Source: an uncultured Marinoscillum sp. (lineage in GTDB: Bacteria; Bacteroidota; Bacteroidia; Cytophagales; Cyclobacteriaceae). Taken from it: a stretch of DNA of 39,044 bases. How positions within the stretch are numbered: position 1 is the stretch's first letter; every line of letters starts with the position of its first letter. The notes below the pieces were generated by a model. It was not told the DNA's origin. It saw only the letters and a list, made by a program, of their open reading frames with translations, and made no database searches. Location of the stretch: assembly GCA_902605755.1 (NCBI GenBank), contig CACLDR010000017.1, positions 1 to 39,044 of the forward strand, read 5' to 3'. Below, piece after piece: positions 214 to 38,230 of the stretch. The translations under genes and the position numbers were made by a program.

Positions 214-1944
214 TTATTGGTCCCACCAAACACTGGTAGTTTCTACATCAGGTCCTTGACTTGAGACAGCAGCATTATAAAACTCGCTGTTATTGATCTG
301 CTCAGTTGAAGGATAAGTAATCCTTTTAGTGAAGTTATCAGGTCCTCCGTCCGACGCAGTGTATCGACCATCCGGTGCCGCCATTGGAATCAAAACAGGC
401 AAATGCAACCTCCTATGATCTGCCCATGCTTCCCATCCTCCGTCGGGAAATAGTGCGAGATACTTTTGAGTGATTATTTTACCCATCGCATCATCAACGG
501 CAGAACCATTAAAAGACTTTCCGGAACTATTATCAAATGCAACGGTAGTACCATAAGTGTTTTCAACTGAAGAGGCAATATAAGCAGCAGTTGTAGCCGC
601 ATCAACACCGTGGTGAGTCATAGATGCAGTAATACCCAATTCATACCATTCTTTTGCAGTGCCACCTCCGGTACTCCATCCGCGTTGCGCAGCTTCAGCC
701 ATTAAGAAGCAAAGTTCATGATAAGTTAAAATTTCTAAGGGACGCTCCGCATTCGTAGACATCGAAGGACCCATAATGGAAATGTTGCTGAAAACATGCT
801 CAGCTAACGAAGAATTACCCGTGCTCAGACCAGCAGGAACTCCAATCCATCGATTTCGAGTGTCAACTTCAATTGTATCACCAGCAGCATTTGCGACTTT
901 GACACCCTCTGCACCAACCGCAGGGGAAAAGTAAATTGGACCTCTTGGATCTACCACAGACGGAACACCTAATCTAAATTTATTTGCCTTTGGATCAAGA
1001 GAATTTTCGTTCGCTGGCAAATCAAAGCCTTCGTCATCAACAATCATTCCCGTAGTGTCAATAGCTATAGGTTGACCACCCAGTCCGGTCAATAAATTTT
1101 CCATTGATCTACTCATGTGCAAACCTCCCCATCCATAATAAAACGTATAAGGATAAGCAAAGCCCCATCCAAAGTTTGCAGTTCGAGTCACCAGACAATT
1201 ATCATCAGCTGAGGTCATTACGCCACTAGTAATTGCAGCTTCTGCATGCTGCTGAGCAAGCGCCGGGTCAGCTTCAGTTATCCTCATCGCCAGACGTAAT
1301 CTCAGTGAATTGCCAAACTTTTTCCATTTCGCAATATCATCGTCAAAAACGTAATCTTGGCCACTAATTTGCGCTGGGTTGTCAGTGCTTAAGGAGTCAA
1401 CAGCTTCACTGAGCTCATTTAGCATGTCAGCATAAATGAGCTGCTGGTCATCATAGATGGGATTTTCACCAGTTCCGTCTGCTGCACCGAAGTAAGGAAT
1501 ATCACCCCAAATGTCTGTCGCTCTACTGAAAACCCAAACTTTCCATATTCTTGCAATTTGAGTCTCATTAAGAGGTTTTCCAGCGGCAGCACTTGCACGA
1601 CCTAAACGGATTCCCTCGCTTAAATTTGCGATAAATCTACTATGATAGCTTGAATAATAACTACTAATCCATTCGTCATTAGTTACACCCTGCTGGGTGC
1701 TAAATGACTCATTAGCCCAATATTGTGCAAACACGTCATTTGTCAACTGAGTCATTCTTTGGTGCATACCAGGATCCAAAACGGATGCACTAATGACATC
1801 TGCCAAAAGAAAACTTGGAGTAACATTCTCTGGTGTGAATGCATTTGGATTCTTTTGAAGATCAATAAAATCATCAGTGCAAGAAAACATAAATGTCATT
1901 AAACTAACCAGTGCAATTGTTGTATTTTTTATCTGTATTTTCAT
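214..1944 (-). CDS. SusD/RagB-family outer-membrane lipoprotein (SusD-like_2 type)
   Basis: Surface glycan- or peptide-binding lipoprotein that caps its partner SusC channel. The N-terminus is a lipoprotein signal ending in FMFSC (Cys at about residue 22), followed by the acidic CTDDFIDL stretch typical of exported Bacteroidota lipoproteins. The start of the mature part (about 30-60, with NPNAFTPENVTPSFLLADV), the helical middle with DIWGDIPYF (about 144-152), and the late segment with KYLALFPDGGWEAWADHRR (about 495-512) match the SusD-like_2 subgroup. The 576-residue length is normal. It starts 11 bp after the susC stop, so the two are co-transcribed. The substrate cannot be read from the sequence because no dedicated carbohydrate enzymes are adjacent. 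Confidence 0.9.
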   Translation of the reverse strand: MKIQIKNTTIALVSLMTFMFSCTDDFIDLQKNPNAFTPENVTPSFLLADVISASVLDPGMHQRMTQLTNDVFAQYWANESFSTQQGVTNDEWISSYYSSYHSRFIANLSEGIRLGRASAAAGKPLNETQIARIWKVWVFSRATDIWGDIPYFGAADGTGENPIYDDQQLIYADMLNELSEAVDSLSTDNPAQISGQDYVFDDDIAKWKKFGNSLRLRLAMRITEADPALAQQHAEAAITSGVMTSADDNCLVTRTANFGWGFAYPYTFYYGWGGLHMSRSMENLLTGLGGQPIAIDTTGMIVDDEGFDLPANENSLDPKANKFRLGVPSVVDPRGPIYFSPAVGAEGVKVANAAGDTIEVDTRNRWIGVPAGLSTGNSSLAEHVFSNISIMGPSMSTNAERPLEILTYHELCFLMAEAAQRGWSTGGGTAKEWYELGITASMTHHGVDAATTAAYIASSVENTYGTTVAFDNSSGKSFNGSAVDDAMGKIITQKYLALFPDGGWEAWADHRRLHLPVLIPMAAPDGRYTASDGGPDNFTKRITYPSTEQINNSEFYNAAVSSQGPDVETTSVWWDQ

Positions 1945-1955
1945 TCTATAAAATT

Positions 1956-4900
1956 TTAAAATCCTAAATTAATATTAAAGCCATATACTTTCGTTGAAGG
2001 AAAGGCACCATTTTCCCAACCACGAGCGTTAGAAACAGAAAAACTTGTTTCAGGATCAACTCCTGGTACTTCACTCTTAATGAGCCATAAGTTTCTACCC
2101 GTTATTCCAACCGAAATTTTATTAAATGGAGTTGAAGAAACTAGACTTTGAGGTAGCGTATAACTTATATAAGCCTCTCTTAGCCTGATACTTGTAGCAT
2201 CATACATAAATTCAGAGACCACAGGCTCTGCTCCTGCTACTGCGTCCCAATATTGTTGAGAAGTAATTGTATTGGTATTAACCGCTCCATCTTCCGTTAC
2301 CCCCTCAACTAAAAGTCCACCTTCTCGATATGCAACTGTTCCCTGTGCTGTGCCATCACTGTGCATGAAGGCCATTGATTGAGAATAAAATTGACCTCCT
2401 TGCTTCCAATCAATTAAAAACCCAAAATTGATACCGCGATAGGTAAAATCATTTATCAAACCCATTGTAAAGTCTTGTTGAACATTACCCATGAAAGAAT
2501 TTTTATCTGCTGATTTAAGAGGTACACCTGCGGCATCTACAACAATCCTACCATTATCATCACGCTGATAGTCACGACCATAAATATCCCCCCACAGTTC
2601 ACCCTCATCAGCAACTATTCTAATAGCTCGAGAACTTTCGTCACCCTGCAAAAGAAGACGATCGACTCCATCGCTTAATTTGTTCACCGTCATTTGATTT
2701 GATGCATAATTTATCATTATGTTCCATTGAAAATCTGATGTTTGAACTGGTGAACCCGAAACCATAAGCTCAAAACCCTTACTCTCCACTTCACCACCAT
2801 TTATCAATTTGAATTGATATCCCGTTGCTCCAGGAACTGGCAATTGTATGATTTGATCAGTAATTACCTTTGAGTATGCCGCCAATTCAATTCCTATACG
2901 ATTGTTTAGAAGGTTCAAATCAAACCCAAATTCATTTGATGTGACAAATTCTGGTTTAATTTTTGGATCAAATAAAATACTCGGGGTAGATGTTGAAATC
3001 ACATTTAAAAATCCTCGACCGATTGAGTAAGTCGGTGATAATTGATAGGGATCTAAATCTGATGCTCCTTGACTAGTAGCTCCCCTTAATTTAGCAAATG
3101 AAATAATATTTGGAAGGGATATGGCATCAGAGAGCACAAAAGATAAACTAACTGATGGATAAGCGAAAGACCACACATCTTCATCAAGGTTACTTGACCA
3201 ATCGTTTCTGTAAGTCAGATCTAAAAATAGAAGGTCTTTAAATCCAATATTCGCGAACCCATATAATGACCGAATTCTACTCTCTGATTTGTTGCTCTGT
3301 GGTCTGTTGAAACTTCCGTACGACAAATTATAAACACCAGGCAAATCTAATAACCCCGTACTACCTGCAGTTTGAAAAAATGTGTTATGTCTACTGTTTC
3401 CACCAAAATTCAACGCGACATTAAGTTCACCAAACGTTTTGGAAGCAGTCACTAAAAAATCAATATTTGTTTCCGTTGCTCTCGTATTTGAAGCGGTATA
3501 ATTAGAACCATTGTTTCGAGACAAACTTCCTGGATCAAAAACACCATATGCTTTGATATCTTCTAATTGAGCACTCCGAAAATCAGAACCATATCGCGCA
3601 AATGCTTTTAACCAAGGAGCAAAAGTATAATCCAACTTAACCATAGTAAAAACACGATCAGTATTATCCTCGTTCGAATCTTCATTAATTACCCAATAAG
3701 GATTTCTTCTGGTGCTGAAGCTAATTGGACTCCACATATTCATCGTTCCATCTGCCGCCATCCAAGGATCTTGATGTTTAAATTGAATGTTCCTTGGAGT
3801 AGATATGTAGCCTCTGAAAATGTTACTTATACTTCCAGATGTTTCAGGCCTATTATAGACCTCCTCATTATTGTAGCTAATTTTAGCATCTGCCTTGAAC
3901 TTTTCGGTAAGTTGTGCGGTGGTTCTCACAGTTATCATATTTCGCTTCAAAGTACTGTTAGGTATAAGACCTTTGGAATCTAAATTTGTGTAACCTAATC
4001 TAAATGTTGCTTTATCATTTCCTCCTGTAACAGCAACAGAATTTGTAAAGTTCGTTCCAGTTTGCAAGAAATTCTTAAGGTCATCAGGATCGGCAGTAAG
4101 AGGATTATCAGATCCGGTCCAGTCAGTAACTGTTTGTCCACTGATTTTTGGCCCCCAACTTCCTGTGGAAATAGCATCATAAACTCCATTGGCTCCCTGG
4201 GCATATTCATTTTGGATGTCAGGCATCACCAAAGGACTCTCAAAGGTGAAAGAACCACTATAACTAACTCCTAGACCTTTACCTTGAGTTCCTTTTTTAG
4301 TTGTTATCAAAACAACTCCCGTCATACCTCGACTACCATACAATGCAGCAGCTTCGGGACCCTTTAGTATGGTCATCGTTTCGATATCATCAGGATTAAT
4401 GTGTTGAGCACCATTTCCATTATCTGTTGCACCATATTCATTGGTTGAAGTCGCTGTTTGATAGTTATCTATCGGAATACCATCAACAACAAAAAGTGGT
4501 TGATTTTTTCCTGGAGATCCAGTTAAAAAACCTCCACCTCCACGTATTAAAATTCCGGTAGTACCACCTGGACCGTTACCTGTTTTTTGTATATCTACAC
4601 CTGCCACCCTTCCGCTAATATTATTCAAAAAATTAGTCTCGCGTGCGGCAACTATTTTTTCTCCCTTAATCTCCTGAGCAAAATACCCCAGTGATTTCTT
4701 GTCTCGTTCAATCCCTAAAGATGAAACAATAATTTCGCTCATTTGCGTGGCATCTTGCATCATTGTGACGTCTATCACTGATCGCGAACCAACTACTACC
4801 TCTTGAGTTGACATACCAATGAATGAAAAGATTAAGGTACCCCCCGCCTCAGGTAAACTAATAACATACTTACCATCATTATCCGTGACAGAACCTGATG

Positions 4901-5387
4901 TCGTTCCCTTTAGAATTACGTTAACCCCTGGAATTCCTTGATTATCCTCATCTGTCACCATTCCTGTGACAGTGCGCTCTTGCTCAATAGTCAGGATCGC
5001 TTCCGAATTTCCATCGACGCGTCTACTTATTGTAATGTTGTTATTGACCTGTCTAAATTTAGTCTTAGAATCTTTCGAAACTTGCAATAAAATATCAGAA
5101 ACAGCATTTTCACCTGCTTCAATATCTACTAGCTGTTTCAATTCAGATTCTAAGTCAGCTTTATCAATTGCAAACCTAAAATTAGATTTTTCTTCAATCT
5201 GATTAATAATATCATTTACTGTCAAATCATCAGAATTGAGCTCTACTTTTACTTCCCTAACGCTAATATTCTTCTGAGCTCGACCAGTGTTGGCAAGAAC
5301 CAGATTTAAAAATAAAGCTTGGAAAAGTAACCCATAAATTGAGTATTTTGTAATCATAGTTATGGCATTAATTAGTTTTAATTTCAT
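1956..5387 (-). CDS. SusC/RagA TonB-dependent outer-membrane transporter with STN transducer domain
   Basis: Outer-membrane channel importing a polymer or oligomer, energised by TonB. In order: signal peptide (about 1-38); STN domain (about 48-125) that signals to FecR; carboxypeptidase-D regulatory-like domain (about 139-215, beginning TVTGMVTDEDNQGIPGVNV); plug (about 228-365, including PLFVVDGIPIDN and ILKGPEAAALYGSRG); and a long beta-barrel ending in an aromatic residue (GFNINLGF). The 1143-residue length fits the family. The STN domain together with fecI and fecR immediately upstream indicates a transducer that switches on its own operon when substrate binds. The 138-bp gap before it shows no clear TAnnTTTG box, so transcription may depend on the ECF sigma factor. 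The substrate is unknown. Confidence 0.95.
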   Translation of the reverse strand: MKLKLINAITMITKYSIYGLLFQALFLNLVLANTGRAQKNISVREVKVELNSDDLTVNDIINQIEEKSNFRFAIDKADLESELKQLVDIEAGENAVSDILLQVSKDSKTKFRQVNNNITISRRVDGNSEAILTIEQERTVTGMVTDEDNQGIPGVNVILKGTTSGSVTDNDGKYVISLPEAGGTLIFSFIGMSTQEVVVGSRSVIDVTMMQDATQMSEIIVSSLGIERDKKSLGYFAQEIKGEKIVAARETNFLNNISGRVAGVDIQKTGNGPGGTTGILIRGGGGFLTGSPGKNQPLFVVDGIPIDNYQTATSTNEYGATDNGNGAQHINPDDIETMTILKGPEAAALYGSRGMTGVVLITTKKGTQGKGLGVSYSGSFTFESPLVMPDIQNEYAQGANGVYDAISTGSWGPKISGQTVTDWTGSDNPLTADPDDLKNFLQTGTNFTNSVAVTGGNDKATFRLGYTNLDSKGLIPNSTLKRNMITVRTTAQLTEKFKADAKISYNNEEVYNRPETSGSISNIFRGYISTPRNIQFKHQDPWMAADGTMNMWSPISFSTRRNPYWVINEDSNEDNTDRVFTMVKLDYTFAPWLKAFARYGSDFRSAQLEDIKAYGVFDPGSLSRNNGSNYTASNTRATETNIDFLVTASKTFGELNVALNFGGNSRHNTFFQTAGSTGLLDLPGVYNLSYGSFNRPQSNKSESRIRSLYGFANIGFKDLLFLDLTYRNDWSSNLDEDVWSFAYPSVSLSFVLSDAISLPNIISFAKLRGATSQGASDLDPYQLSPTYSIGRGFLNVISTSTPSILFDPKIKPEFVTSNEFGFDLNLLNNRIGIELAAYSKVITDQIIQLPVPGATGYQFKLINGGEVESKGFELMVSGSPVQTSDFQWNIMINYASNQMTVNKLSDGVDRLLLQGDESSRAIRIVADEGELWGDIYGRDYQRDDNGRIVVDAAGVPLKSADKNSFMGNVQQDFTMGLINDFTYRGINFGFLIDWKQGGQFYSQSMAFMHSDGTAQGTVAYREGGLLVEGVTEDGAVNTNTITSQQYWDAVAGAEPVVSEFMYDATSIRLREAYISYTLPQSLVSSTPFNKISVGITGRNLWLIKSEVPGVDPETSFSVSNARGWENGAFPSTKVYGFNINLGF

Positions 5388-5525
5388 ATTTTTATGTTCG
5401 GTTAAATATTTTAATAGCTGGAACTGAGTGATTATTTTCAGAAAATTTGATCTCAGTTTAATATAGAGTCAAAAACCTTGTTTTCGACTTTTATTTTGGG
5501 GTGATGTTGTTTCTTACATATTTTT

Positions 5526-6578
5526 TTAAAATATTATATTTACGGTTTCTCCTTCAATTGTATATTCAAAATTTTTGGAATAACTAATGGTCTGCATCAC
5601 ATTTTCTAATGTCTCATTGTTAAATTCAGAACTAAACTGCCACACTCCTGATTTTTCACCATTCTTAATAATAAATCTTTTACCATACCACCGCTGAAGT
5701 ACTTCAACTACTTCGTTAAAAGTAGCATCTTCGAAATAAATGATTCCGTCTCTCCAACTTAATACCTTTCTAGGATCGAAACTGCCTTGAACCATCTGCC
5801 CACTAGATTTAAAAACACTCAATGATTGACCTGGGTCTAAATAAACCTTTTGATCATTTTTATTTCTTTTGGCTATCCGTCGCACCATCACTTTCCCTTC
5901 GGCCAAAGCAACTTGATGACGATCTGAATTCTTAAAAGCATTAACATTAAATTGAGTCCCGATAGTTGTAACGGCAAACGATGATGTTTGAACGATAAAC
6001 TTTTTTGATTGATCTTTAGCCACATCAAAATAAGCCTCTCCCTTAAGTTTAACCAATCTTTTGTCTCCGGAAAAGTGTTGATCATACTCAATGCTACTTT
6101 TTGAGTTCAACCAAACGATAGTCCCATCGGGAAGATAAATCTGTGACTTTCTTCCTGCATCATTATTTTTTACAATTGTACCAATTTGAACTTTACTTTT
6201 ATCGGCATTATCAATTTTCCTTGAAAAATAGAGACCCGAAATGAAAGCTACAGCAACAAATATGGATGCGACACGCCAAAAATACCGAAAATCTAATTTT
6301 TTAATAAGGCGTGTATTACTGTGAGCATATTTTGACTTTTGACCAAGCAACGTTTTCTCAAATATTTCTTCGTAGCGCTCATCGCTCACTTGATTTTGTT
6401 TGAATTCTATCTTCTGAATTAATTCTTTCGCCAATAAAAATTCTGCTTTTTTATCTGGATTATTTTTGAGCCAAGTTTTCCAGTAACGCTCTGTTTCAGG
6501 TTTTGGACTTATGACCCAATCTCTGAAATTGAGATCCATTAAGAACAGTTCAATCGAATTTTTTTCTTTAGCGGACAT
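5526..6578 (-). CDS. FecR-family anti-sigma factor
   Basis: Inner-membrane protein that holds and releases the FecI-type sigma factor in response to the STN domain of SusC. The sequence shows a cytoplasmic N-terminal part (about 1-100), one membrane segment (about 105-125, VASIFVAVAFISGLYF), a periplasmic FecR domain (about 145-230, beginning YLPDGTIVWLNSKSS and including GTQFNVNAF), and a C-terminal DUF4974-like domain (about 275-350, starting SWRDGIIYFEDATFNEVV). The 350-residue length is normal. It lies 118 bp after fecI and 138 bp before susC, the usual Bacteroidota order. Confidence 0.92.
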   Translation of the reverse strand: MSAKEKNSIELFLMDLNFRDWVISPKPETERYWKTWLKNNPDKKAEFLLAKELIQKIEFKQNQVSDERYEEIFEKTLLGQKSKYAHSNTRLIKKLDFRYFWRVASIFVAVAFISGLYFSRKIDNADKSKVQIGTIVKNNDAGRKSQIYLPDGTIVWLNSKSSIEYDQHFSGDKRLVKLKGEAYFDVAKDQSKKFIVQTSSFAVTTIGTQFNVNAFKNSDRHQVALAEGKVMVRRIAKRNKNDQKVYLDPGQSLSVFKSSGQMVQGSFDPRKVLSWRDGIIYFEDATFNEVVEVLQRWYGKRFIIKNGEKSGVWQFSSEFNNETLENVMQTISYSKNFEYTIEGETVNIIF

Positions 6579-6696
6579 TCCTATTATATCAACAACTAAT
6601 CTTAATATTGAGTATAGTTATATCAAAAGGGCATCACTTTTTTAATTTTTTTTTCTGGTAATAAACAAGTACACTGAACGGATGTGAAATGGTTAC

Positions 6697-7362
6697 TCAA
6701 TAGTAAAAGCACAAGATAACCAATGTAAGGGCAGACTTCATATGATTCAAGGCTTTGTAAATAAGATTTCTGACAGACCGTATATTGGAAAATCCCATCA
6801 ATTTTTTTATCTCCAAATAACTTAGCCCTTCATAATAGAGACAGTAAATGGCTTCTCTTTGTCGATTAGTCAATGTCATTACTGCCTCTTTCAATTTTTT
6901 ATTATTGTCCGTTTTAATCTGCTCAGCAATAATTTTCTGCTCAGTCGAAATTTCGATGTCAAATAATCGAAATTTAGAATTTTCAAAATTTACAGTGTTA
7001 TCATTTATTTTTTTTTTGTAAAGTAAAATTCTTCTTCTCAAGCAGGTAAATAGATAGTTTCGAATAGAAGTTTTTATTGAAATTTTTTTTCTGTTTTCTC
7101 TTAACTCAATAAACATATCTTGAAGCGCATCTTCTATTAAAGATTCATTTTTTGTAAACTGACAACCGTATTGAAAGAGACCTTCAAAATGAGTTTGATA
7201 AATATGACTAAATGCAATTTCCTTACCTTCTTTAAACAATTTCCAGAGTCGAACATCATCCAAAGAATCTAGGGATTCCTTGTTATTTGAAGGTTCAAAA
7301 TTATTTTTTTGAAATGATTTTTTAACTTCTTTTTCAGGTGGTAAAATTAATTTTCGATTCAC
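6697..7362 (-). CDS. ECF sigma-70 factor, FecI type
   Basis: RNA polymerase sigma factor that should activate the downstream fecR-susC-susD genes. Region 2 spans about residues 50-115 (AFSHIYQTHFEGLFQYG, then EDALQDMFIELREN). Region 4 spans about 155-210 (LTNRQREAIYCLYYEGLSYLEIKKLMGF followed by the helix-turn-helix, given here in part). The short hydrophobic C-terminus (VILCFYY) is common in Bacteroidota FecI proteins. The N-terminus has about 35 extra residues before region 2, but no other Met lies between, so this start is kept. The gene is very A/T-rich with long A and T runs, and the upstream side is a gene-free gap. Confidence 0.9.
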   Translation of the reverse strand: MNRKLILPPEKEVKKSFQKNNFEPSNNKESLDSLDDVRLWKLFKEGKEIAFSHIYQTHFEGLFQYGCQFTKNESLIEDALQDMFIELRENRKKISIKTSIRNYLFTCLRRRILLYKKKINDNTVNFENSKFRLFDIEISTEQKIIAEQIKTDNNKKLKEAVMTLTNRQREAIYCLYYEGLSYLEIKKLMGFSNIRSVRNLIYKALNHMKSALTLVILCFYY

Positions 7363-23054: not shown

Positions 23055-25124
23055 ATGGAACCTGTGAAAATACCAAGAAAATATATAACACGATTATACC
23101 CAGAATGGGATTCTTCTCTTTGGATAATTTTCTTTACATTATGTCTGACATTTAACGGTTGTACTAATGGAGATAAAAGTCTAGGTAAAACTCAAAGACC
23201 CAACGTAATTTTCATCATGTCTGATGATCACACGTCACAGGCTGTCAGTGCCTATGGTGGTAGACTTTCTAAAATTTCCCCTACATCAAACATTGACAGA
23301 TTAGCCAATGAAGGAATGTTGTTTAAAAATTGCTTTGTAACCAACTCAATATGTACGCCCAGCCGGGCGGCTATTATGACGGGGAAATATGCACATAAAA
23401 ATGGTGTTTATAAATTCACCGCTCTTGATCAAACACAACCTACTTTACCAAAGGCAATGCAGGCAGATGGATATCAGACTGCATTCGTAGGCAAATACCA
23501 CCTTCATTCAAACCCGGTAGGATTGGATTACTTTTCCATCCTTCCAGGGCAAGGTGACTATCATAATCCTGAATTCATAGAAAAGGAAAATGAGCATCTA
23601 AGTGGTTGGGTGCAACAAGGAAAAAAAATACAATATAAAGGTCATTCTTCGGATATAATTGCAAACAAAGCTTTGAATTTTCTTAAAAATGAGACTTCTG
23701 ATGATCAACCCTTTATGCTCTTTTGCCACTTCAAAGCTCCTCATGATACGTGGGATTATGCAGCGCGATACGAGAAATTCTTGGCTGATGTAGAAATACC
23801 CGAGCCAGATAATCTTTTTGATGACTATGAGGGTAGAAGTGATGCGCTTAAGACTCAACTCCAGTTTATAGGAAGTAAATGGGGAGATCATACAAATTTC
23901 GAAAAGCAAACAACTGACTTGGAGGGCAAAGCGAAACGCAAAAAACAATATCAATTGTATATGAAAAAGTACCTTCGATGTGTCAAAGGAGTTGACGATA
24001 ATGTGGGTAGAATATTAGACTATTTGGATGAGTCAGGCTTGGCTGAAAATACGATTGTCATGTATACTGGAGATCAGGGGTTTTATTTAGGTGAGCACGG
24101 ACTATATGACAAGCGTTTTATGTATGAAGAAGGTCTACGCATGCCATTTCTCATTAGGTGGCCAGGAGAGGTAGAGCAAGGATCAACAAGTGATGGCATG
24201 ATATTAAATGTGGACTTTGCCCCGACAATACTGGAGGCAGCAGGTCTACCCACACTTGAAGGAACTCAAGGGAAGAGTTTTATGCATTTACTGAGCGGCA
24301 ATATTCCAACAGACTGGCGAACCTCAATGTACTACAGATATTATTATTCTCATTTTGAAACTGAACCACATTTTGGAATCAGAACTTATGATCATAAACT
24401 TATTTATTTTGACAAAATTGATCAATGGGAATTTTATGACCTGAATAAGGATCGTGCAGAAATGTACAATCAGTATAATAACCCAGCTCATCAAACAATT
24501 ATATCTGATTTAACCGAGGAATTGAGCCGCCTTCAAGTTGATTTAGAAGATGACCCTAAAGATGATGGTAGCAATCCAAATATTGGAGCACTTACTGCCA
24601 GACCTCTATTTCAAACTTCCAATGTTAGCCTAGGATTACAAAATATTTCTGTATTGATGAAATTCCGAACAAAAGTTGGAGGCACTCTTTTTTCAAAATG
24701 TCGGATTGGAGATATTCCCTGGTCTGTAGATTTTGAGCTGAGTGGAATTAAAACATTATTTTTGAGAGAAGGCAATTTGATTTTCAACGATGGCTGGGAC
24801 GATGATACTGAGATGAGAATAGCCCAAAACATGGATGATGGTCAGTATCATACAATTGCCATGACTATTAATAACGGAGTTGTTAGTTTTTATGTTGATG
24901 GCAAACTAAAACTAGCAGTGACCAAATTACTTTCTGAAGACAACATTAAGCATACATTCAACATTGGGGCAGGCATAGATTTTACTGGTTATCAAGGATA
25001 CAATTTTATTGGTGACATTTCGAGTTGTTTGGTCTATGATAAATCGTTAACCGAAAAAGAAGTCCGGGAATTTAATAAAGGTAGTATTTCTTCCGGTAAA
25101 CAATTACTGAATTGGCAAAATTAG
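23055..25124 (+). CDS. Secreted or lipid-anchored type I sulfatase with C-terminal LamG-like domain
   Basis: Hydrolyses sulfate esters, probably on a polysaccharide. The N-terminus has a hydrophobic segment ending FNGC (Cys about 36), so it is probably a lipoprotein, though the 20 residues ahead of that segment make the signal long. The catalytic core begins RPNVIFIMSDDH (metal-binding Asp pair). ICTPSRAAIMTG carries the CxPSR signature whose Cys becomes formylglycine. GKYHLH and MYTGDQGFYLGEHG supply further active-site residues. Residues from about 515 to 680 form a concanavalin/LamG-like domain (HTIAMTINNGVVSFYVDGK), possibly a carbohydrate-binding module. The opening motifs resemble the S1_11 subgroup (GlcNAc-6-sulfatase-like), a tentative call. 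The 689-residue length is longer than a bare sulfatase because of this domain. It stands alone, with no maturase or transporter beside it. Confidence 0.9.
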   Translation: MEPVKIPRKYITRLYPEWDSSLWIIFFTLCLTFNGCTNGDKSLGKTQRPNVIFIMSDDHTSQAVSAYGGRLSKISPTSNIDRLANEGMLFKNCFVTNSICTPSRAAIMTGKYAHKNGVYKFTALDQTQPTLPKAMQADGYQTAFVGKYHLHSNPVGLDYFSILPGQGDYHNPEFIEKENEHLSGWVQQGKKIQYKGHSSDIIANKALNFLKNETSDDQPFMLFCHFKAPHDTWDYAARYEKFLADVEIPEPDNLFDDYEGRSDALKTQLQFIGSKWGDHTNFEKQTTDLEGKAKRKKQYQLYMKKYLRCVKGVDDNVGRILDYLDESGLAENTIVMYTGDQGFYLGEHGLYDKRFMYEEGLRMPFLIRWPGEVEQGSTSDGMILNVDFAPTILEAAGLPTLEGTQGKSFMHLLSGNIPTDWRTSMYYRYYYSHFETEPHFGIRTYDHKLIYFDKIDQWEFYDLNKDRAEMYNQYNNPAHQTIISDLTEELSRLQVDLEDDPKDDGSNPNIGALTARPLFQTSNVSLGLQNISVLMKFRTKVGGTLFSKCRIGDIPWSVDFELSGIKTLFLREGNLIFNDGWDDDTEMRIAQNMDDGQYHTIAMTINNGVVSFYVDGKLKLAVTKLLSEDNIKHTFNIGAGIDFTGYQGYNFIGDISSCLVYDKSLTEKEVREFNKGSISSGKQLLNWQN

Positions 25125-29824: not shown

Positions 29825-29997
29825 AAATAAAATACAACTAATTGAGTCGCATAACGATACAATGACTTACTATCATGACTACTAATTTAATAATTCCAAC
29901 TGTTTGAAGCTATTGTGTGTTTTTAAAGTAGTGACGACAATAATTAAAAAACTATTGTACAATATCGTCTTAATCAACACTCTAAAAATTTAATCTT

Positions 29998-30177
29998 ATG
30001 GTTCGAAATAAGGTATCCAAGGGACTCAAAAAGTTATTATCGAAGAACAAGTCTGATCACTTTTCTATTCACCCCGAACCCTTTGTTAATGACCCAAGTG
30101 AAAGGCTCCAGTACATGAAATTATTTAATAGGGCTATAGAAATTGACTCGCTCCAAGAGTTACACCCAATTAAATAA
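29998..30177 (+). CDS. Possible small protein (59 aa)
   Basis: An ATG at 29998 opens a 59-residue frame with a basic start (MVRNKVSKGLKKLLSKNKSD) and a varied, protein-like remainder including EPFVNDPSERLQYMKLFNRA, ending LHPIK. In this A/T-rich setting a stop-free, non-repetitive frame of 60 codons is mildly unusual. There is no signal peptide, no known family and no clear promoter. Confidence 0.4.
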   Translation: MVRNKVSKGLKKLLSKNKSDHFSIHPEPFVNDPSERLQYMKLFNRAIEIDSLQELHPIK

Positions 30178-30419
30178 CAATATATGGATTATTAATCCCA
30201 TCATGATTGTTTCTATGCTTTGGAATTTCTCACTTCTTTTGGCGAACTACGACCTATAAAAAATATCCAAATTTTCTTATAAACTGTTCTTACCAAAACT
30301 AGGCATTAAGGTTAAAATCAGTTTTAAAAAGGTTTATAACAAGTCAGGCTAAAAGATTTTTCAGCAAACTAAAAAGCTAAGTACCTAAGCTTATCACAAT
30401 ATAAAACAATAAATATTTA

Positions 30420-31841
30420 TTATTGTGGTAGGTTTTGATAGATGAGTTCATAATTTTCAATAAAATCAAGAACCTGTTCAACATCTATCTTTTTTGCTAT
30501 TATTTTCCTTTCCTGATCTACCACATAGAGCTGAGGTGTTGTTCTTACATTATATTCCATTCTAAAATTATTTTTATAAGATGGGTCCCCGAGATTCAAC
30601 CAATCTAACTTCTGTTCAATTATAAACTTTTTCCATTTATCTGTATCTGTAATGGTACAAATGGCAATCACCTCTGCTCCTGCCTTCTTTAAATCAGGGT
30701 AGAGTTGCTTTAATATTGGAGTTTTCTTTTTACAATGACCACATTCTGGATCATAAAAAAAGTAAACTAAATACTTCTCCTTCAGTTGATCTAAAGAAAA
30801 TGGCCGCATTGCTGTATCTAACAAATTCATTCTTGGTGCCATTTTCCCAATCAAATTAGGTCTAATAAATTTTAACTCTTCTGCTATTTCAGCCTTCTGA
30901 TCTTCATCCATAAAATCAACTTTATCTGTCAAAAAATATTCATCAGATAAAAACACAGTGACTCCATCCATTCCCATTATTTTAGACTCTTGATATTTGG
31001 TGTACAAGGTCATCAACCAATACCTAAAGCCTTGAGGATGATCTTCAAATTTATCTAGCCAATTTTTAATCTGGATATTGACTGAATCTGCCTGTCGAAT
31101 AACCAGATCATCAAAATATTTCATGACATACCCATGTAATACAGGAGTCCTCATCATACTGGGAGCATCGTCTAAAACATCAAAGTAATGATCTTTATAA
31201 TATTTAAAAGATGCTGTTTTACGGACTTTTAGATCTTCAATATGCTCGAAGTCAGGAATAGTTATCCCTTCAACAATTTTTAAAAAAGAAATGAAAAATA
31301 AATCAGGATAGTCTGAAATTAATGATTCACGAAATTCCTTTGCACTGAGTCCGAGTCTCTCGAGATCTTTAATAATTGAAAGCGAGTCAGTGCCGGCTGA
31401 AGTAGTTAAGCGTTGTGATAATTCAGATTGTTGCTTTTGAACCTCCGCCATTTTATTTTGAAATTTTGCAAATAATTCATTGTCCTTTGATCCTGAAATT
31501 TTTATATCCTTGTATCCAAGTTCTGAATTAATCTTCATTTGAAAAAATTGGTCACTGATAATGAATTCAAAATAAAAGTTTGGGGAGTAAAGAAAATATA
31601 CTCCTTTTTCTAAGGCATAATCCCCTTTTAACTGAAGCATATTATTAACAATTTTAACAGAATCAAGAATTAAACGCTGATTCCCAAAATGATATCCCAC
31701 TACAGTCGAAGAGTCTTTAATTCCTACTATTTCAATACTAATTTCATGCCCTACACGCTGTTCCTTTTTTTGAGCACAACTATAAATAGCCCAAGAAATT
31801 AGCAATACAAACCCGTAAGATTTTAAAAAAATTCTTATCAT
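30420..31841 (-). CDS. Thioredoxin-fold lipoprotein (TlpA/ResA-like, with DUF4369/DUF5106-type N-terminus)
   Basis: Periplasm-facing thiol-disulfide protein. Lipobox IYSC (about 22) follows a hydrophobic signal. About 35-130 look like the beta-rich DUF4369-type region (GNQRLILDSVKI), and about 130-330 a helical DUF5106-type region. The C-terminal thioredoxin-like domain carries CGHC in FYDPECGHCKKKTPIL, and the cis-Pro in RTTPQLYVVD. The 473-residue length fits this multi-domain class. On plus-strand 31868-31875, CAAAATTA reads TAATTTTG on the coding strand, a possible -7 box about 25 bp upstream. The partner is unknown, and it is probably a single-gene unit. Confidence 0.88.
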   Translation of the reverse strand: MIRIFLKSYGFVLLISWAIYSCAQKKEQRVGHEISIEIVGIKDSSTVVGYHFGNQRLILDSVKIVNNMLQLKGDYALEKGVYFLYSPNFYFEFIISDQFFQMKINSELGYKDIKISGSKDNELFAKFQNKMAEVQKQQSELSQRLTTSAGTDSLSIIKDLERLGLSAKEFRESLISDYPDLFFISFLKIVEGITIPDFEHIEDLKVRKTASFKYYKDHYFDVLDDAPSMMRTPVLHGYVMKYFDDLVIRQADSVNIQIKNWLDKFEDHPQGFRYWLMTLYTKYQESKIMGMDGVTVFLSDEYFLTDKVDFMDEDQKAEIAEELKFIRPNLIGKMAPRMNLLDTAMRPFSLDQLKEKYLVYFFYDPECGHCKKKTPILKQLYPDLKKAGAEVIAICTITDTDKWKKFIIEQKLDWLNLGDPSYKNNFRMEYNVRTTPQLYVVDQERKIIAKKIDVEQVLDFIENYELIYQNLPQ

Positions 31842-32360
31842 TTTATTTCTAATATATTTTGACGCCTCAAAATTAAATGGTTTATTGTAGTAAACCTATA
31901 ACTCATATTTAAGTTTTGAATAATTCAAAGAAAAAACTCCCTCACTTGATCATAAAACATCCACCTGTTAGAAATACCTCCACCCTTTTTGATCTAAACA
32001 TTAATAATGTTAATAATATTTACGTTTTAATTTTTGAATGAAAGTTTAATTTGTAGTTTCCAAAGAACTAGTGATCTGAAGCAAGAGACTAGCCCTAAAG
32101 CACTTCTAGATTTACTACTATTTTACCATCACAATCAAATTGGCATCAATGTCACTAGAAATTTAATCAATAAATATTGTAACTATTCCTATAAATATCC
32201 TGAGAAAAGTGAAGTATTTTATCCGATCTTAGTTTAAATAGTTCAAATGAATCATTAACATATCCAAAAACGCAGAGACCCTTATGTAAAAAATAAGACA
32301 TAGCTGGAGTAATAATTGTCATACCTACCTACCTTATAATATAGTTGTGTTTATCATTTG
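31842..32360. other. Gene-free gap, about 0.5 kb
   Basis: No supported gene. A plus-strand frame at 32034-32237 (67 codons from a TTG) has no recognisable content. The gap separates the thioredoxin lipoprotein from the end of a decayed gene. Confidence 0.45.
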
Positions 32361-33474
32361 CTAATGGCTTTTAACGTTTAAATTGCCTGATTTTTTGAAG
32401 CAACTTTCATGGCTAGAGCAATTCCTAGCATTTTCGCTAAACTTATCGAAAAGTTCAACGATAATGTATGCATATACGAATAAACTATTATCACCATCCC
32501 AAAAATAGATTTGAAGTAATTTTCGAATTTATTTTGCGCATTTTATGTATTCATTGTTCAAAGGATCATTTAGACAAATTAAGAATTTGGGAAAATCCTC
32601 AAGAGAGCCTAAATAATAGGCATTGAGTGTAAAATTTGACCAACTTCGATCATTCACAGCATAATCTAACCAACAGGGCTAAAGAGAATTATCTATCAGA
32701 CCTGTTTCATTTGTATAATTATTCAGTAAACCCATTAACCTGTAAGCATTTGGAATAAGTACCCTTACAATTGATGAGTCACTCGAATACAAAAAAAAAT
32801 TTAAAACTACTTACCCACAAACAATAAGAGTCTAGAATTATCACATAGCCATCTAAATTAAGTGGAGCGAAAGATGGCATTATACCATTTGCCTACTGCT
32901 CGTCAGCAACTTGTAAAAGGTTTCTTCTCAGAAGAAGATAATCACCAAAAAAAAAATTAATTATTTCCTAAAGCAACTTAAAACCCTGTTTTGAATATTG
33001 ACGACGCTCATGATAATTATTAGTATAACTATCTGTGGTACACAAATCAATTGTTTTGGTAGATACTTTCATATTCCAAGGGCTATCAATCGATTTTATC
33101 TGACCTTTAGTTTTAAACAGATATGATATTTGATGTTTTCCGACGCCAAATATTTTAATTGGTTAAGATATAATTTCTAATACTATTCCTAAATATCTTG
33201 TGGTTTCCGATAGGTTGCTTCCCAAAAAACACGTTCTCCAGCTAAAATAATTTCATCTTTAAATTCCGAATAAACGATATGATATTTAAACTCATTATTT
33301 AAAAAGTACAGTGCACTCCAAATCTCAACTTTTAATCTAGTAGGTCCAATGATATCTAGTCGTTCCGATCCATTTAATACTTCACAATAATAAAAAAAGA
33401 ATATCCTTTTCCCAGATCTATCAGTAGGAGGAATTATTATGGTCTTTTTTCTACCTCTGTAATCAGAAATAGTT
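32361..33474 (-). pseudogene. Decayed gene of unknown family, about 1.1 kb or longer
   Basis: Minus-strand frames link into a protein-like chain with several lesions. In order: TIIIPPTDRSGKRIFFFYYC and LDIIGPTRLKVEIWSALYF, open from about 33474 to a TAG at 33191-33189; after a shift, PIKIFGVGKHQISYLFKTKG to GFKLL and a TAG at 32970-32968; another shift at a ten-base homopolymer, then MPSFAPLNLDGYVIILDSYC (from 32880); a shift in the T run at 32791-32799; then DYAVNDRSWSNFTLNAYYLG and SLFVYAYIIVELFDKFSENA, with a TAA at 32531-32529 and the final TAG at 32363-32361. The upstream half looks beta-rich, the downstream half helical. It may be one gene or two adjacent ones. I do not recognise the family. 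It may extend upstream toward 33600. Confidence 0.65.
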
Positions 33475-33767
33475 TAGAAATATTTCTAGATATTCATTAT
33501 AATTTTAATAGATTTTGATAATCCGTTTTACTCCCAAAGCTTTTGACCTAACCTTTAAACCCCTTGAATATACCTATTAACTGACCGAGATTTTATAAAA
33601 AAAATTCTAGTAATCCTTTATCGATAGCTATCCAATATTTGGAAAATCAATTAATTTCAATGCAAAGAAAAAGTAGATGACTAACTAGTACTTTGCTGAT
33701 TTTATATTTCTACTAATAATGAAAAAAAGTATATCCAGGAAAAAGAATTTTTGGATCCAATTTTAAA

Positions 33768-34856
33768 TTATTTATACATTTCCTCAAGATCATTTTCAAA
33801 AAGAGTACAATTATTTTTCCTAAAGTCTCTAAAATCAGATGCTGCTGGGTGCTCATCAAAAGGAATAAAATAATTTGTGCTGTCTTTATTTGGACCAAAC
33901 ATCACCCAACTTAGGGCCCCATGATCCAAGGCTTCAAAACCGTTCAGCAGGGTTTTAGAAAACCAGAGGGAATCGGTAAGTCCATTTTGGCCTGTCTCTG
34001 TAATTGCAGCTAATTTATTTTTTTTATATGCTAATTTGTCAATAAACTTTAAGTCATTAATGAAATTAAGCGACGTAATGTGACGTTCTTCTTCATCTTC
34101 TTCATGTACGCTATAACTTACCAAGCCAAAAACATCTACATAATCATCTCCAGGATAACCGAAAAAATACTCTTTATTCATATTCGATTCTTCCATAACA
34201 GATCGATCTGGTGAGTACGCATAAATTATATTATGAACCTTCTTTACATCTTTAAGATAGTCAACGGTAAATTTCCATAATGAAATTAAAGATGCCTCAG
34301 TTCCACTTCCCCACCAAACCTCCTTAACATTATGCCTATCAAAAAGCGTTAATATGACTGGCATGTTTAACTGTGAAAGAAACAGCGCTAATTGGTTCAA
34401 GAGGGTTAAGTATTCCTGATGCAAAGAAGCTCCTGGTAACACATTAGCTACTTGCCATCGGGAAATGTAGGGAATTTTTCGATTCTCTAGGTAAGTCGGG
34501 CGCCAAGACAACGAATTGATGCCACCTCTCGAATATACATCCCGCATCCATGTTTTCATTTGGTCATAGTTGACGGAATCATTATTATATTCATTCTCTA
34601 AAAAATCAATGGCCCATCCATGCAAAGCAGGATAAGATCCTACGGTTTCCCTAACATCTGATCTCCCTTTTTTCGCTCGCCATTTAACACCATAAGCCAT
34701 ATCATTTTGATGACCAATAAAAACTTTCCTCCCATTATTTTTTAAGTTTTGGTATAAATTATTTGTTTTCTTTGATGCTTTCCCATCAATGAGAGTTTGA
34801 GAGAAAACCATCTGTATCAAAATGAGACTAAGACATAGAGTTGTCGTTTTATACAT
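33768..34856 (-). CDS. GH26 (beta-mannanase-like) glycoside hydrolase homologue lacking the acid/base Glu
   Basis: Exported (signal peptide about 1-19, ending MVFSQ), 362 residues. The GH26 fold is clear: FIGHQNDMAYGVKW (about 47-59), RSDVRETVGSYPALHGW (65-81), GGINSLSW (111-118), WWG (181-183), LWKFTVDYLKDVKKVHNIIY (about 193-212), YAYSPDRS, and nucleophile Glu287 in AITETG. In active GH26 enzymes the acid/base motif reads HEH before WFWWG; here it is Asp173-Arg174-His175, so the catalytic Glu is Arg. The usual SWH is also SWR (Arg119). It is therefore probably inactive on normal mannans, a binding protein, or altered in mechanism. It stands alone in a gene-poor stretch, next to a pseudogene. 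Confidence 0.85.
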   Translation of the reverse strand: MYKTTTLCLSLILIQMVFSQTLIDGKASKKTNNLYQNLKNNGRKVFIGHQNDMAYGVKWRAKKGRSDVRETVGSYPALHGWAIDFLENEYNNDSVNYDQMKTWMRDVYSRGGINSLSWRPTYLENRKIPYISRWQVANVLPGASLHQEYLTLLNQLALFLSQLNMPVILTLFDRHNVKEVWWGSGTEASLISLWKFTVDYLKDVKKVHNIIYAYSPDRSVMEESNMNKEYFFGYPGDDYVDVFGLVSYSVHEEDEEERHITSLNFINDLKFIDKLAYKKNKLAAITETGQNGLTDSLWFSKTLLNGFEALDHGALSWVMFGPNKDSTNYFIPFDEHPAASDFRDFRKNNCTLFENDLEEMYK

Positions 34857-35148: not shown

Positions 35149-35754
35149 TTGCTAATGTTAATTCAAGGCCTACTATTTACTCGACATCAAATCACTGGTG
35201 AAGAGAAAATTCCCAAGGATCAACCCATTATTGTTGTTTCCAATCATCAAAATATGATGGATATACCACCTCTTATTTGGTATTTCAGACATCAACATGC
35301 CCAATTCATTTCGAAAAAAGAACTTGGCCGTGGTATCCCAAGCATTTCCTTTAACCTTCGAAAAGGAGGTTCTTTGCTGATAGACAGGAATTCTGGAAAC
35401 ACTGCTATCACCCAAATAACGCAATTTGGCAATCAAATCTACAAAAAAAAGTGTGCTATTATTATTTTCCCTGAGGGAACTAGGAGTAATAGTTCCAGCT
35501 TAGGTCCGTTCAAAATGGGTGGACTTAAAGCATTGATTAATGCAATGCCGGATGTCCTTATTGTGCCTTTTGTGGTACATAACAATTACCAGATTTTTGA
35601 AGATGGTACTTTCCCTCTAAAACTAAGAAATCATTTAAATTATAGCATCTTGGACCCATTTAATCCAAAGGACTTAGATGTAGATACCCTAAAAGTTAAA
35701 CTTGAAGACCTTTTTCTCAACGAATTGAATAAATTTACTCAATCATCCCACTGA
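35149..35754 (+). CDS. plsC: 1-acyl-sn-glycerol-3-phosphate acyltransferase (PlsC-like)
   Basis: Membrane acyltransferase making phosphatidic acid. It shows the HxxxxD motif in VVSNHQNMMDIPP, the second block around the Arg in RKGGSLLIDRNSG, and FPEGTRS. The start used is TTG at 35149 (ATG at 35155 also in frame). The same frame is open back to a TAG at 34990-34992, and those 52 upstream codons read as a natural PlsC N-terminus with a membrane helix (YYSVFFLLLATFHLIQYFCY), yet contain no ATG, GTG or TTG. The true start may be the ATA at 34993 or may have been lost. From 35149 the 201-residue protein would lack the anchor. Confidence 0.85.
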   Translation: MLMLIQGLLFTRHQITGEEKIPKDQPIIVVSNHQNMMDIPPLIWYFRHQHAQFISKKELGRGIPSISFNLRKGGSLLIDRNSGNTAITQITQFGNQIYKKKCAIIIFPEGTRSNSSSLGPFKMGGLKALINAMPDVLIVPFVVHNNYQIFEDGTFPLKLRNHLNYSILDPFNPKDLDVDTLKVKLEDLFLNELNKFTQSSH

Positions 35755-35875: not shown

Positions 35876-36901
35876 TTATCTCACATAAACTTTTTTTTCT
35901 TTCACTTTTTTAATGGTTCCCATGGCTGAAAGAACTAATCCCACCGTTTTAACTAACTTTAAAAAATCAGTTACACCCTCGGATGCGACGGCAACCAAAA
36001 GTCCTCCACTGGTCTGGGGATCGGCTAATATAAGTTTTTGGTTTTTGTTTTTTAAATTAACTTTCTCACTATAACTCTCCCAATTCCTTAATGTTCCTGC
36101 GGGACAACATCGTTGATCAATGTAAGATTGCAAATTTGGTAATTTAGGGATGGCGTCAAAATAAATTTCCGCACTGGTTCCAGAGGCCTCACACATCTCA
36201 ATTAAATGACCCAATAAACCAAATCCCGTAACATCGGTCATTGCATGAACACCATCTAATGTGGACAATAAAGTTCCAACATCATTGAGTTGAATCATTG
36301 ATTCCATTGCCAATGCCGCGCTATCTTCTTTCAATAGACCTTTTTTAATAGCAGTAGTAATGATACCGACTCCTAAAGGCTTAGTCAAAAAGAGTATATC
36401 TCCAGGTCTTGCACCTTTGTTCTTTTTTAAATTTTTAACAACTACTGTACCCGTCACGGCCAAACCAAAAATAGGCTCAGGACTGTCGATACTATGTCCC
36501 CCTGCCAAGGGAATATTAGCTTGCTTACATACAAATCGTGCCCCTTCAATTACTTGGTTTGCAACAGAGGCAGGTATATCATTGATGGGCCATCCTAAAA
36601 TAGCTATGGCCATAAATGGGCTGCCTCCCATGGCATAAATATCGCTTATTGCATTTGCAGCAGCAATTCTTCCAAAATCATAGGAATCATCTACGATAGG
36701 CGTAAAAAAGTCAGTGGTACTGATAACTGCCGTCCCATTACCTGTATCAAATACAGCAGCATCATCCCTATCTTGATTTCCGACTAACAAGTTAGGAAAA
36801 GAGTGCTCTTTTTTGTGACCTAAAATATTATCCAATACTTGTGGCGCAATTTTACATCCACACCCGGCTGCATGACTGTATTTTGTTAATTTATAATCCA
36901 T
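35876..36901 (-). CDS. selD: Selenide, water dikinase (selenophosphate synthetase)
   Basis: Makes selenophosphate from selenide and ATP. The start DYKLTKYSHAAGCGCKI carries the catalytic Cys14 and Lys17 (Cys form, not selenocysteine). Other segments include DDAAVFDTGNGTAVISTTDF, the metal-binding GGHSID, TDVTGFGLLGHL, and ADPQTSGGLL near the end. The 341-residue length is normal. It overlaps the end of selU by 11 bp. With no selA, selB or tRNA-Sec here, the selenophosphate is probably used for tRNA 2-selenouridine. Confidence 0.96.
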   Translation of the reverse strand: MDYKLTKYSHAAGCGCKIAPQVLDNILGHKKEHSFPNLLVGNQDRDDAAVFDTGNGTAVISTTDFFTPIVDDSYDFGRIAAANAISDIYAMGGSPFMAIAILGWPINDIPASVANQVIEGARFVCKQANIPLAGGHSIDSPEPIFGLAVTGTVVVKNLKKNKGARPGDILFLTKPLGVGIITTAIKKGLLKEDSAALAMESMIQLNDVGTLLSTLDGVHAMTDVTGFGLLGHLIEMCEASGTSAEIYFDAIPKLPNLQSYIDQRCCPAGTLRNWESYSEKVNLKNKNQKLILADPQTSGGLLVAVASEGVTDFLKLVKTVGLVLSAMGTIKKVKEKKVYVR

Positions 36902-37922
36902 TTTTTATTGCAATAAATATCAATTTTTGAGCAACTTGTTTATCTGTCATTTTTGCCGTATTGATGGAAGTTGCCATCGTAAAGCCGTTGTTCATAGTAG
37001 ATCTGCTGTAAGCCTTATCATAATAACTTAACGCAATTGTACAAGCCCTCTCAGCATCACCAACTTCGATCGCCTCCAAGGCCTCTTTAAGATGTTGTCC
37101 ACCTAATCTTTTCTCAATTTTTTTAAAGGCATTAATTAAATCTCTCTTTTGAAATCGTCCATAATCATTCACAAGGCGATTGATCCGCTGTTTTAAAGTA
37201 CGTTCTATGACAAAAATAGGTGAGTCACGAAATGTTTTGAATACTTCATGTGGAATAAAAGCATGTCCGATAGATTGACTCTCACTTTCAATCCAAATCC
37301 GTTTTTTTAGATCAAAAGCAGAAAAACATTCATAAAGATTATTTTCAAACTGCTCTTGAGTTGGCTGCTGTTCTTGTCCCAACATCCCAAAAACTGAGCC
37401 TTTGTGATTCGCCAAGCCCTCCAAGTCTATAACTTGTTCTTGGAGATCAATGAGTTCATGCAAGATAACCGTTTTACCACTGCCCGTTTTACCGCCCACC
37501 AATATCAAATGCGCAACTTTATCCAAAAGTACTTCTCGTAAATAAGTTCGATACGCTTTATATCCACCTTCCAATATTTGATATGAAAAGCCTGCAGCTT
37601 CAAGTAAAGCAGCCATACTTTGACTTCTTAATCCTCCTCGCCAGCAATGAATTAGTATATTTTTATAAGGGGCTAATCGTTTCGCTTCCTCGACAAAAAA
37701 TCTTAATTTAGGAGCTATAAAATCCAAACCTTTAAGGAATGCGACTTCCCTACTCTTTCGCTTAAATAAGGTTCCCACCCTTACTCTTTCCTCATCAGAA
37801 AAGAGAGGCAGATTGAAAGCTCCTGGAATTTGTCCCTTATTAAATTCTCCAGGTGAGCGTACATCTAAAATAACTCGGTCTTTACGGACCTCCCAAAGTT
37901 CAACAACCTTAATTTTGTTCAT
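36891..37922 (-). CDS. mnmH: tRNA 2-selenouridine synthase
   Basis: Replaces sulfur with selenium at the wobble 2-thiouridine of certain tRNAs (also named selU or ybbB). The N-terminal rhodanese domain (about 1-130) has VILDVRSPGEFNKGQIPGA and the active-site Cys93 in IHCWRGGLRSQS. The C-terminal part has a P-loop GGKTGSGKT (143-151) and the family segments WIESESQSIG and RINRLVNDYG. The 343-residue length is normal. It is the first gene of a two-gene operon with selD, overlapping by 11 bp. Confidence 0.95.
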   Translation of the reverse strand: MNKIKVVELWEVRKDRVILDVRSPGEFNKGQIPGAFNLPLFSDEERVRVGTLFKRKSREVAFLKGLDFIAPKLRFFVEEAKRLAPYKNILIHCWRGGLRSQSMAALLEAAGFSYQILEGGYKAYRTYLREVLLDKVAHLILVGGKTGSGKTVILHELIDLQEQVIDLEGLANHKGSVFGMLGQEQQPTQEQFENNLYECFSAFDLKKRIWIESESQSIGHAFIPHEVFKTFRDSPIFVIERTLKQRINRLVNDYGRFQKRDLINAFKKIEKRLGGQHLKEALEAIEVGDAERACTIALSYYDKAYSRSTMNNGFTMATSINTAKMTDKQVAQKLIFIAIKNGL

Positions 37923-37963: not shown

Positions 37964-38230
37964 TTAAAGAAAATTATCAACTATACGATATACAGCTATA
38001 ACGGCCAGCTCTCCATGTTTTCCTTTCATAGAATTACCATGCTCCATCCCTAGAATCCCCTGGTGTTCTTTTTTATGAATATGTTTAAAAATGTTATTAT
38101 ATTTTAATGCTCCCGAGGTTGGTTCTTTACGGAAGAGGTTATCTCCAAGCTGAAAGTAAGCTAAGAAGTAATTTATATACGTACACAGAGTTAACAAAAT
38201 GTCCTCCGTAAAGTGAGTAATTAAGCTCAT
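37964..38230 (-). pseudogene. C-terminal remnant of a hydroxypyruvate-isomerase-like gene
   Basis: The last 70 or so residues match the end of the hydroxypyruvate isomerase/TIM-barrel family: AYFQLGDNLFRKEPTSGALK (usually YFQxGDNPGRKEPxTGE), NIFKHIHKKEHQGILGMEHG and GELAVIAVYRIVDNFL. A full enzyme has about 270-300 residues; only 88 can be read here, and the upstream 110 bp to the next gene is too short for the rest. The Pro-Gly after GDN is Leu-Phe and the Glu after TSG is Ala, so conserved positions are also eroding. It ends 41 bp from the selU start. A truncated gene is the best reading. Confidence 0.7.

Follow-up and report, generated by a model that had tools for sequence, protein, structure and literature searches.

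The window analysed here is the whole 39,044-nucleotide stretch of contig CACLDR010000017.1, from an uncultured Marinoscillum sp. It contains, on its reverse strand, a gene for a protein related to the β-mannanases of glycoside hydrolase family 26 (GH26), flanked by genes that accompany it in the other genus regions examined. The features of the locus are as follows, with the residues placed by alignment.

33768..34856, reverse strand: GH26-like gene, 362 aa, with a signal-peptide-like N terminus and the acid/base Glu lost
34785..34856, reverse strand: residues 1-24, hydrophobic N terminus ending in ..VFSQTLID, read by eye
34500..34502, reverse strand: Arg119 (codon CGC), replacing the SWH histidine of subsite -1
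34332..34340, reverse strand: Asp173-Arg174-His175, replacing HEH, with Arg174 at the acid/base position
34320..34322, reverse strand: Glu179, replacing the +1 Trp (Glu in eight and Asn in one of nine genus proteins)
33996..33998, reverse strand: Glu287, the nucleophile position, kept in nine of nine
33891..33896, reverse strand: Gly321-Pro322, replacing Trp-Arg of WRN
30420..31841, reverse strand: DUF4369/AhpC-TSA thioredoxin-like (TlpA-like) gene, the downstream neighbour in the genus
35149..35754, forward strand: PlsC-type acyltransferase gene (PF01553), the divergent neighbour in the genus
35876..37922, reverse strand: two genes, selD and mnmH, read by eye, the upstream neighbourhood in the genus

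By profile score the protein belongs to GH26, matching PF02156 with an E-value of 6.3e-21 and 75.5 bits against a curated cut-off of 20.2. The match spans residues 24-262 (positions 2-246 of the 311 in the profile), and the remainder aligns with CjMan26C, the GH26 exo-mannobiohydrolase of Cellvibrio japonicus (PDB 2vx4-2vx7). This enzyme, a relative over its full length in both fold and sequence, is also the closest solved structure by sequence (5.6e-61), followed by BoMan26A of Bacteroides ovatus (4zxo, 6.2e-45). The N terminus, as read by eye, is apparently a signal of the signal peptidase I type, without a lipobox Cys, and in many orthologues the corresponding segment ends in ..VLAQSLID.

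The preliminary description had read the family HEH motif as Asp173-Arg174-His175, with Arg in place of the acid/base Glu, and this is exactly what alignment with CjMan26C gives: the window motif PVILTLFDRHNVKEVWWG aligns to PIIFRPWHEHNGDWFWWG, and the acid/base stretch FRPWHEHNGDWFWWG of CjMan26C becomes LTLFDRHNVKEVWWG in the window protein. Both proteins have the RSDVR, YPGD and TETG stretches, the last of which carries the nucleophile and is identical, while SWH, GLDNY and VWRN of CjMan26C are replaced by SWR, GLVSY and FGPN. Where GH26 enzymes have the HE motif at the end of β4, the window protein thus has DRH, and the genus as a whole D[RQG]H. An alternative alignment that would supply an acid/base Glu was sought and none was found; because the flanking HN and WWG anchors are equally spaced in the window protein and its relatives, no sensible gap placement brings a Glu to position 174, and alignment error was rejected. 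Sequencing error is likewise unlikely, since the loss of Glu is common to the genus and the window codon, AGG, lies at least two bases from the orthologues' Gln codons CAG and CAA, so that Arg174 is not a single miscalled base. Glu287, described from the outset as the retained nucleophile, does align with it and is present in all nine genus proteins.

A structure model predicted with AF2 from a five-row alignment is of medium confidence (pLDDT 66.8, pTM 0.76) and has the eight strands of a GH26-type (β/α)8 barrel. Its best PDB match is again CjMan26C (2vx4; Z 32.4, 319 residues aligned, rmsd 3.0 Å, TM 0.79). In the model, position 174 lies just after strand 4 and Glu287 within strand 7 (residues 282-290), and the accessible text of the BoMan26A paper places the catalytic pair likewise, after strand 4 and in strand 7. 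The loop at residues 175-184 has a pLDDT below 50, so that the modelled geometry round Asp173 and Glu179 is unreliable.

Every genus copy found has lost the acid/base Glu, and the Arg in its place is particular to the window. The GH26-like protein occurs as one copy in each of nine of the ten genus genomes (the tenth, G198, is 81% complete), and a PF02156 search of the same ten again found a single GH26 in each of those nine, with no canonical GH26 beside it. Residue 174 is Arg in the window protein, Gln in seven orthologues and Gly in the most divergent member, from genome G167 (about 50% identical), giving the motifs D-R-H, D-Q-H and D-G-H. A close relative with Glu at this position, which would have pointed to a random mutation, was looked for among the nine genus proteins and none has it. 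The initial emphasis on Arg174 itself is not borne out: since the position varies among Arg, Gln and Gly, Arg is unlikely to be the family's working residue, and its candidacy as a conserved new catalytic residue was rejected.

Outside the genus, the matches listed from the remaining genera of the family and order comprise 57 distinct GH26 proteins, and every one of them has Glu in the acid/base column. In assembling this comparison, 16 exact duplicates were merged, L017 was dropped as identical to L014 over the compared stretch, and L001, L003 and L064-L071 were omitted as copies of genes already included. Among the matches listed, Glu also occupies the column in 45 of 45 further loci, 44 of them distinct (13 from viral contigs, 2 from the class and 30 from the phylum; L107 equals L133, while L111 and L112 share a core stretch but are not identical). 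In this second set the nucleophile column is empty in five of the 45 rows (L096, L100, L119, L120 and L130) and the W314 column in more. Thus 0 of the 101 distinct outside proteins among the matches listed (57 plus 44) are without the Glu, and its loss in the genus is for this reason not a matter of chance; the outside proteins are the top-ranking loci, no more than 30 per search, a choice that favours canonical members. Searches with a genus profile across 390 family, 390 order and 395 class genomes, which overlap, gave no further clade-like match among the matches listed (E of 1e-75 or better for the class search and 1e-60 or better for the family profile search), with E-values passing from 4.5e-186 for the G167 protein to 4.0e-114 for the best outsider among those listed. 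A search of viral contigs with the genus alignment found no relative, and a DNA pattern matched 20 of the 105 collected loci, all of them genus copies.

The changes extend well beyond the acid/base residue. We mapped the pocket columns from published work by motif spacing and alignment, with contact residues and numbering from the accessible text on BoMan26B (PMC6556568); the placement of Asp101 (-2) at residue 82 is tentative. Besides the acid/base Glu, the residues H136, R197, H200, G204, W206, F207, D261, Y263, E291 and W314 (BoMan26B numbers) are invariant in 57 of 57 outside relatives among the matches listed. Seven catalytic-pocket residues shared without exception by these 57 listed relatives are absent from every one of the nine genus proteins: H200 (to Asp), E201, G204, W206 (to Glu or Asn), F207 (to Val or Tyr), D261 (to Val or Lys) and W314 (to Gly). 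Three further residues, Trp at window position 130, Pro at 171 and Arg at 322, are likewise missing from all nine. In the window protein, the changes beyond DRH and SWR comprise the loss of W130 together with P171L, G177V, W179E, F180V, D246V, W321G and R322P, and R170T is private to it, position 170 being Arg in seven orthologues and Asn in G167. Among the nine -1 and +1 contacts H136, R197, H200, G204, W206, F207, D261, Y263 and W314, the window protein keeps Y263 only; seven orthologues also retain R197, and G167 retains H136. All nine retain the nucleophile Glu287 (E291) and the -1 tyrosine Tyr248 (Y263), and Asp173, also invariant in the nine, places a new carboxylate beside the old acid/base position. 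The reading of SWH as SWR stands for the window protein and for eight of the nine genus proteins (Arg at position 119), but not for the most divergent member, G167, which keeps His.

Conservation in the 57 outside proteins reaches 97% or more at 45 columns. The nine genus proteins all retain 32 of these columns and all lack ten; pocket columns make up seven of the ten lost, compared with four of the 35 others (Fisher p = 6e-4). The proposal that the rest of the fold is retained agrees both with the 32 columns kept and with the match of the predicted barrel to CjMan26C. The related proposal, that changes are confined to the catalytic side, is right in that they fall mostly in the pocket, but they lie on both sides of it and beyond the acid/base residue, and so are wider than first read. 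The same fold, nucleophile Glu and -1 Tyr as in the window protein are described for BoMan26A and BoMan26B of B. ovatus; in contrast, their acid/base residues (Glu188 and Glu201) and most of the -1 and +1 contacts named in the accessible text of those papers are replaced in the window protein.

Several lines of evidence bear on whether the gene is being lost by relaxed decay, in which case Arg174 and Thr170 would be recent damage in the lineage of the window. Pairwise Nei-Gojobori dN/dS is 0.135-0.238 (33 of 36 pairs with finite dS; the three pairs without it all involve G167, whose remaining pairs have dS above 2.4), and it follows from this purifying selection that the protein does something. 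The value for the window and its nearest relative, the orthologue in the Flammeovirgaceae MAG MED636, is 0.152, which does not exceed the values among the others. All nine open reading frames are free of internal stops, and the nine proteins form one clade with SH-aLRT 100 in a tree built without the pocket columns (a quick method, with SH-aLRT as its sole support value). In favour of relaxed decay, private changes are more numerous in the window protein (20) than in any other of the eight close orthologues (0-17) and include two in the pocket, R170T and Q174R, where the other seven have none, and the window is without neighbours that its relatives have, namely a sugar transporter (also absent from MED636) and most of an isomerase-like gene. 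However, the enrichment of private changes in the pocket falls short of significance (2 of 10 pocket positions versus 20 of 243 overall, p = 0.19), and we regard decay as very unlikely. The view that this is something other than random decay, advanced at the start, is upheld by the single clade, the presence in nine of ten genomes, the common synteny, the range of dN/dS and the concentration of losses in the pocket. Conservation across the eight close orthologues is about equal in the pocket (8 of 12) and over the mature protein (217 of 342), which, together with the window's private pocket changes, argues against strict demands on residue 174.

The TlpA-like, GH26-like and PlsC genes occur together in all eight genus regions examined, and SelD and MnmH lie beyond PlsC in all seven regions whose contig reaches that far, with extra genes between in some. 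In G167, a PF00884 sulfatase gene with a CAPTR motif (L068, 7813-9573) lies between the TlpA-like and GH26-like genes and overlaps the 3′ end of the latter by 26 bases, with a GH32 gene farther on and a sugar transporter nearby. A tblastn search for a counterpart of this sulfatase gave no significant match in the seven other genus regions examined. In the window its one significant match, at 23130-24482, falls in a separate sulfatase (23055-25124, with a C-terminal Laminin_G_3 domain), and beyond this the window gave just a 13-residue match at 2087-2049 (E 7.6). The spacer between the GH26-like and TlpA-like genes (31842-33767) measures 1.9 kb, against less than 0.6 kb in MED636, and holds no open reading frame longer than 67 aa; that it might be the remains of the G167 sulfatase gene was rejected, as no tblastn match falls there. 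In several relatives the TlpA-like gene is followed downstream by a sugar-transporter gene, which in L067 (12693-13598) is broken into two reading frames; it has no significant match in the window (interval 29825-30419) or in the MED636 region, L071. At 37973-38164 the window holds a 64-residue remnant of a xylose-isomerase-like gene (PF01261), which is full-length in relatives (e.g. L071, 14583-15569), and the GFO/IDH/MocA and FGE-sulfatase genes that adjoin it in relatives have no tblastn match in the window. At 214-7362, about 26-28 kb from the GH26-like gene, a SusD/SusC-like pair is followed by FecR-like and sigma-factor-like genes, as read by eye.

The reading we favour, with somewhat better than even confidence, is that the protein would be a functional, non-mannanase descendant of GH26, most probably a pseudo-hydrolase that is secreted or periplasmic and binds a ligand. 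Here, a protein descended from a GH26 β-mannanase would no longer be a retaining mannanase, and its (β/α)8 barrel would present a rebuilt pocket that may bind a glycan or other putative ligand, not plain β-mannan. We infer all four elements of this reading: non-hydrolysis, ligand binding, the cell location and the nature of the ligand. Hydrolysis of mannan appears very unlikely because sugar-contact residues are gone besides the acid/base Glu. Against a binder stand the average conservation of the pocket among the eight close orthologues, the window's lead in private changes with two of them in the pocket, the medium confidence of the predicted model, whose pLDDT drops below 50 at loop 175-184, and the finding that the precedent described below, GH26B of Segatella copri, bound no glycan that it was offered. 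The invariance of Glu287 in all nine also counts against a pure binder, because a binder need not keep the nucleophile.

That last point leads to a less probable alternative, a changed chemistry in which Glu287 would still act as nucleophile and the acid/base would be either dispensed with, given an activated leaving group, or moved to Asp173 or Glu179. Plant myrosinase has a Gln at the acid/base position and acts on an activated leaving group. This alternative gains from the invariance of Glu287, Tyr248 and Asp173, from the Gln at 174 in seven of the nine, and from the overlap of the G167 gene with the CAPTR-motif sulfatase gene near GH32 and a sugar transporter. Against it, residue 174 varies among Arg, Gln and Gly, residue 179 is Asn in G167, and the -1 and +1 sugar contacts are lost too, so the substrate would have to differ. 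The more specific proposal of a new-chemistry family derived from GH26, in which Glu287 attacks the sugar and Asp173 (or Glu179) with Arg119 (in eight of nine) forms a new catalytic or anion-binding site, perhaps for a sulfated glycan, seems unlikely. The single case of the G167 overlap is a weak lead to a role in sulfated polysaccharides. Highly improbable, finally, is an ordinary, slightly divergent β-mannanase that is slow on mannan. It would fit the retained fold and nucleophile, and in the fungal GH26 enzyme YpenMan26A the engineered change E165Q alone (PDB 6hpf) cut activity about 360-fold according to the accessible text, thus leaving roughly 1/360, and a galactomannan fragment is still seen in subsites -4 to -2 of the crystal structure (PMC6381184). 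YpenMan26A E165Q has Gln at the acid/base as in the seven genus orthologues, but was engineered in the laboratory from an enzyme that is otherwise natural, whereas the genus proteins have lost the contacts (His, Trp, Phe, Asp and Trp) that all 57 relatives among the matches listed possess. In addition, GH130, which accompanies GH26 in the Segatella copri glucomannan locus as described in the accessible text of PMC12704710, was found in only two of the ten genus genomes and not in the window's own (68% complete).

Literature searches on GH26 pseudoenzymes and on marine Flammeovirgaceae GH26 found no paper on the present clade. The precedent is GH26B of S. copri, encoded in PUL 7 (PNAS 2025, PMC12704710), which in the accessible text of that report has lost both catalytic Glu residues, a loss shared by the homologues that its authors name, and neither cleaved nor bound the glycans tested. 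Likened by description, GH26B resembles the genus clade as a GH26 descendant with a conserved catalytic loss and a signal peptide. It is not a close parallel, however, because it keeps neither Glu and bound none of the glycans offered; the genus clade has lost only the acid/base and keeps Glu287, and the window protein does not share the double loss. Its genomic place differs as well: GH26B lies in a glucomannan PUL, as far as the accessible text describes it, whereas the window gene stands beside genes read as plsC, selD and mnmH.

The genus clade, together with S. copri GH26B as likened from its published description, suggests repeated loss of catalytic residues within GH26, and as far as that description goes, the clade is distinct from the precedent in its kept nucleophile and its other genomic place. 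Annotated by family alone, the window protein would pass for a mannanase and the organism for a user of mannan, while the protein probably has a new job, such as sugar binding, and not the cutting of mannan. The nine orthologues, with Gln, Arg or Gly at the acid/base position and the nucleophile kept, form a natural series for the passage of a retaining glycosidase to a binder or a different enzyme.
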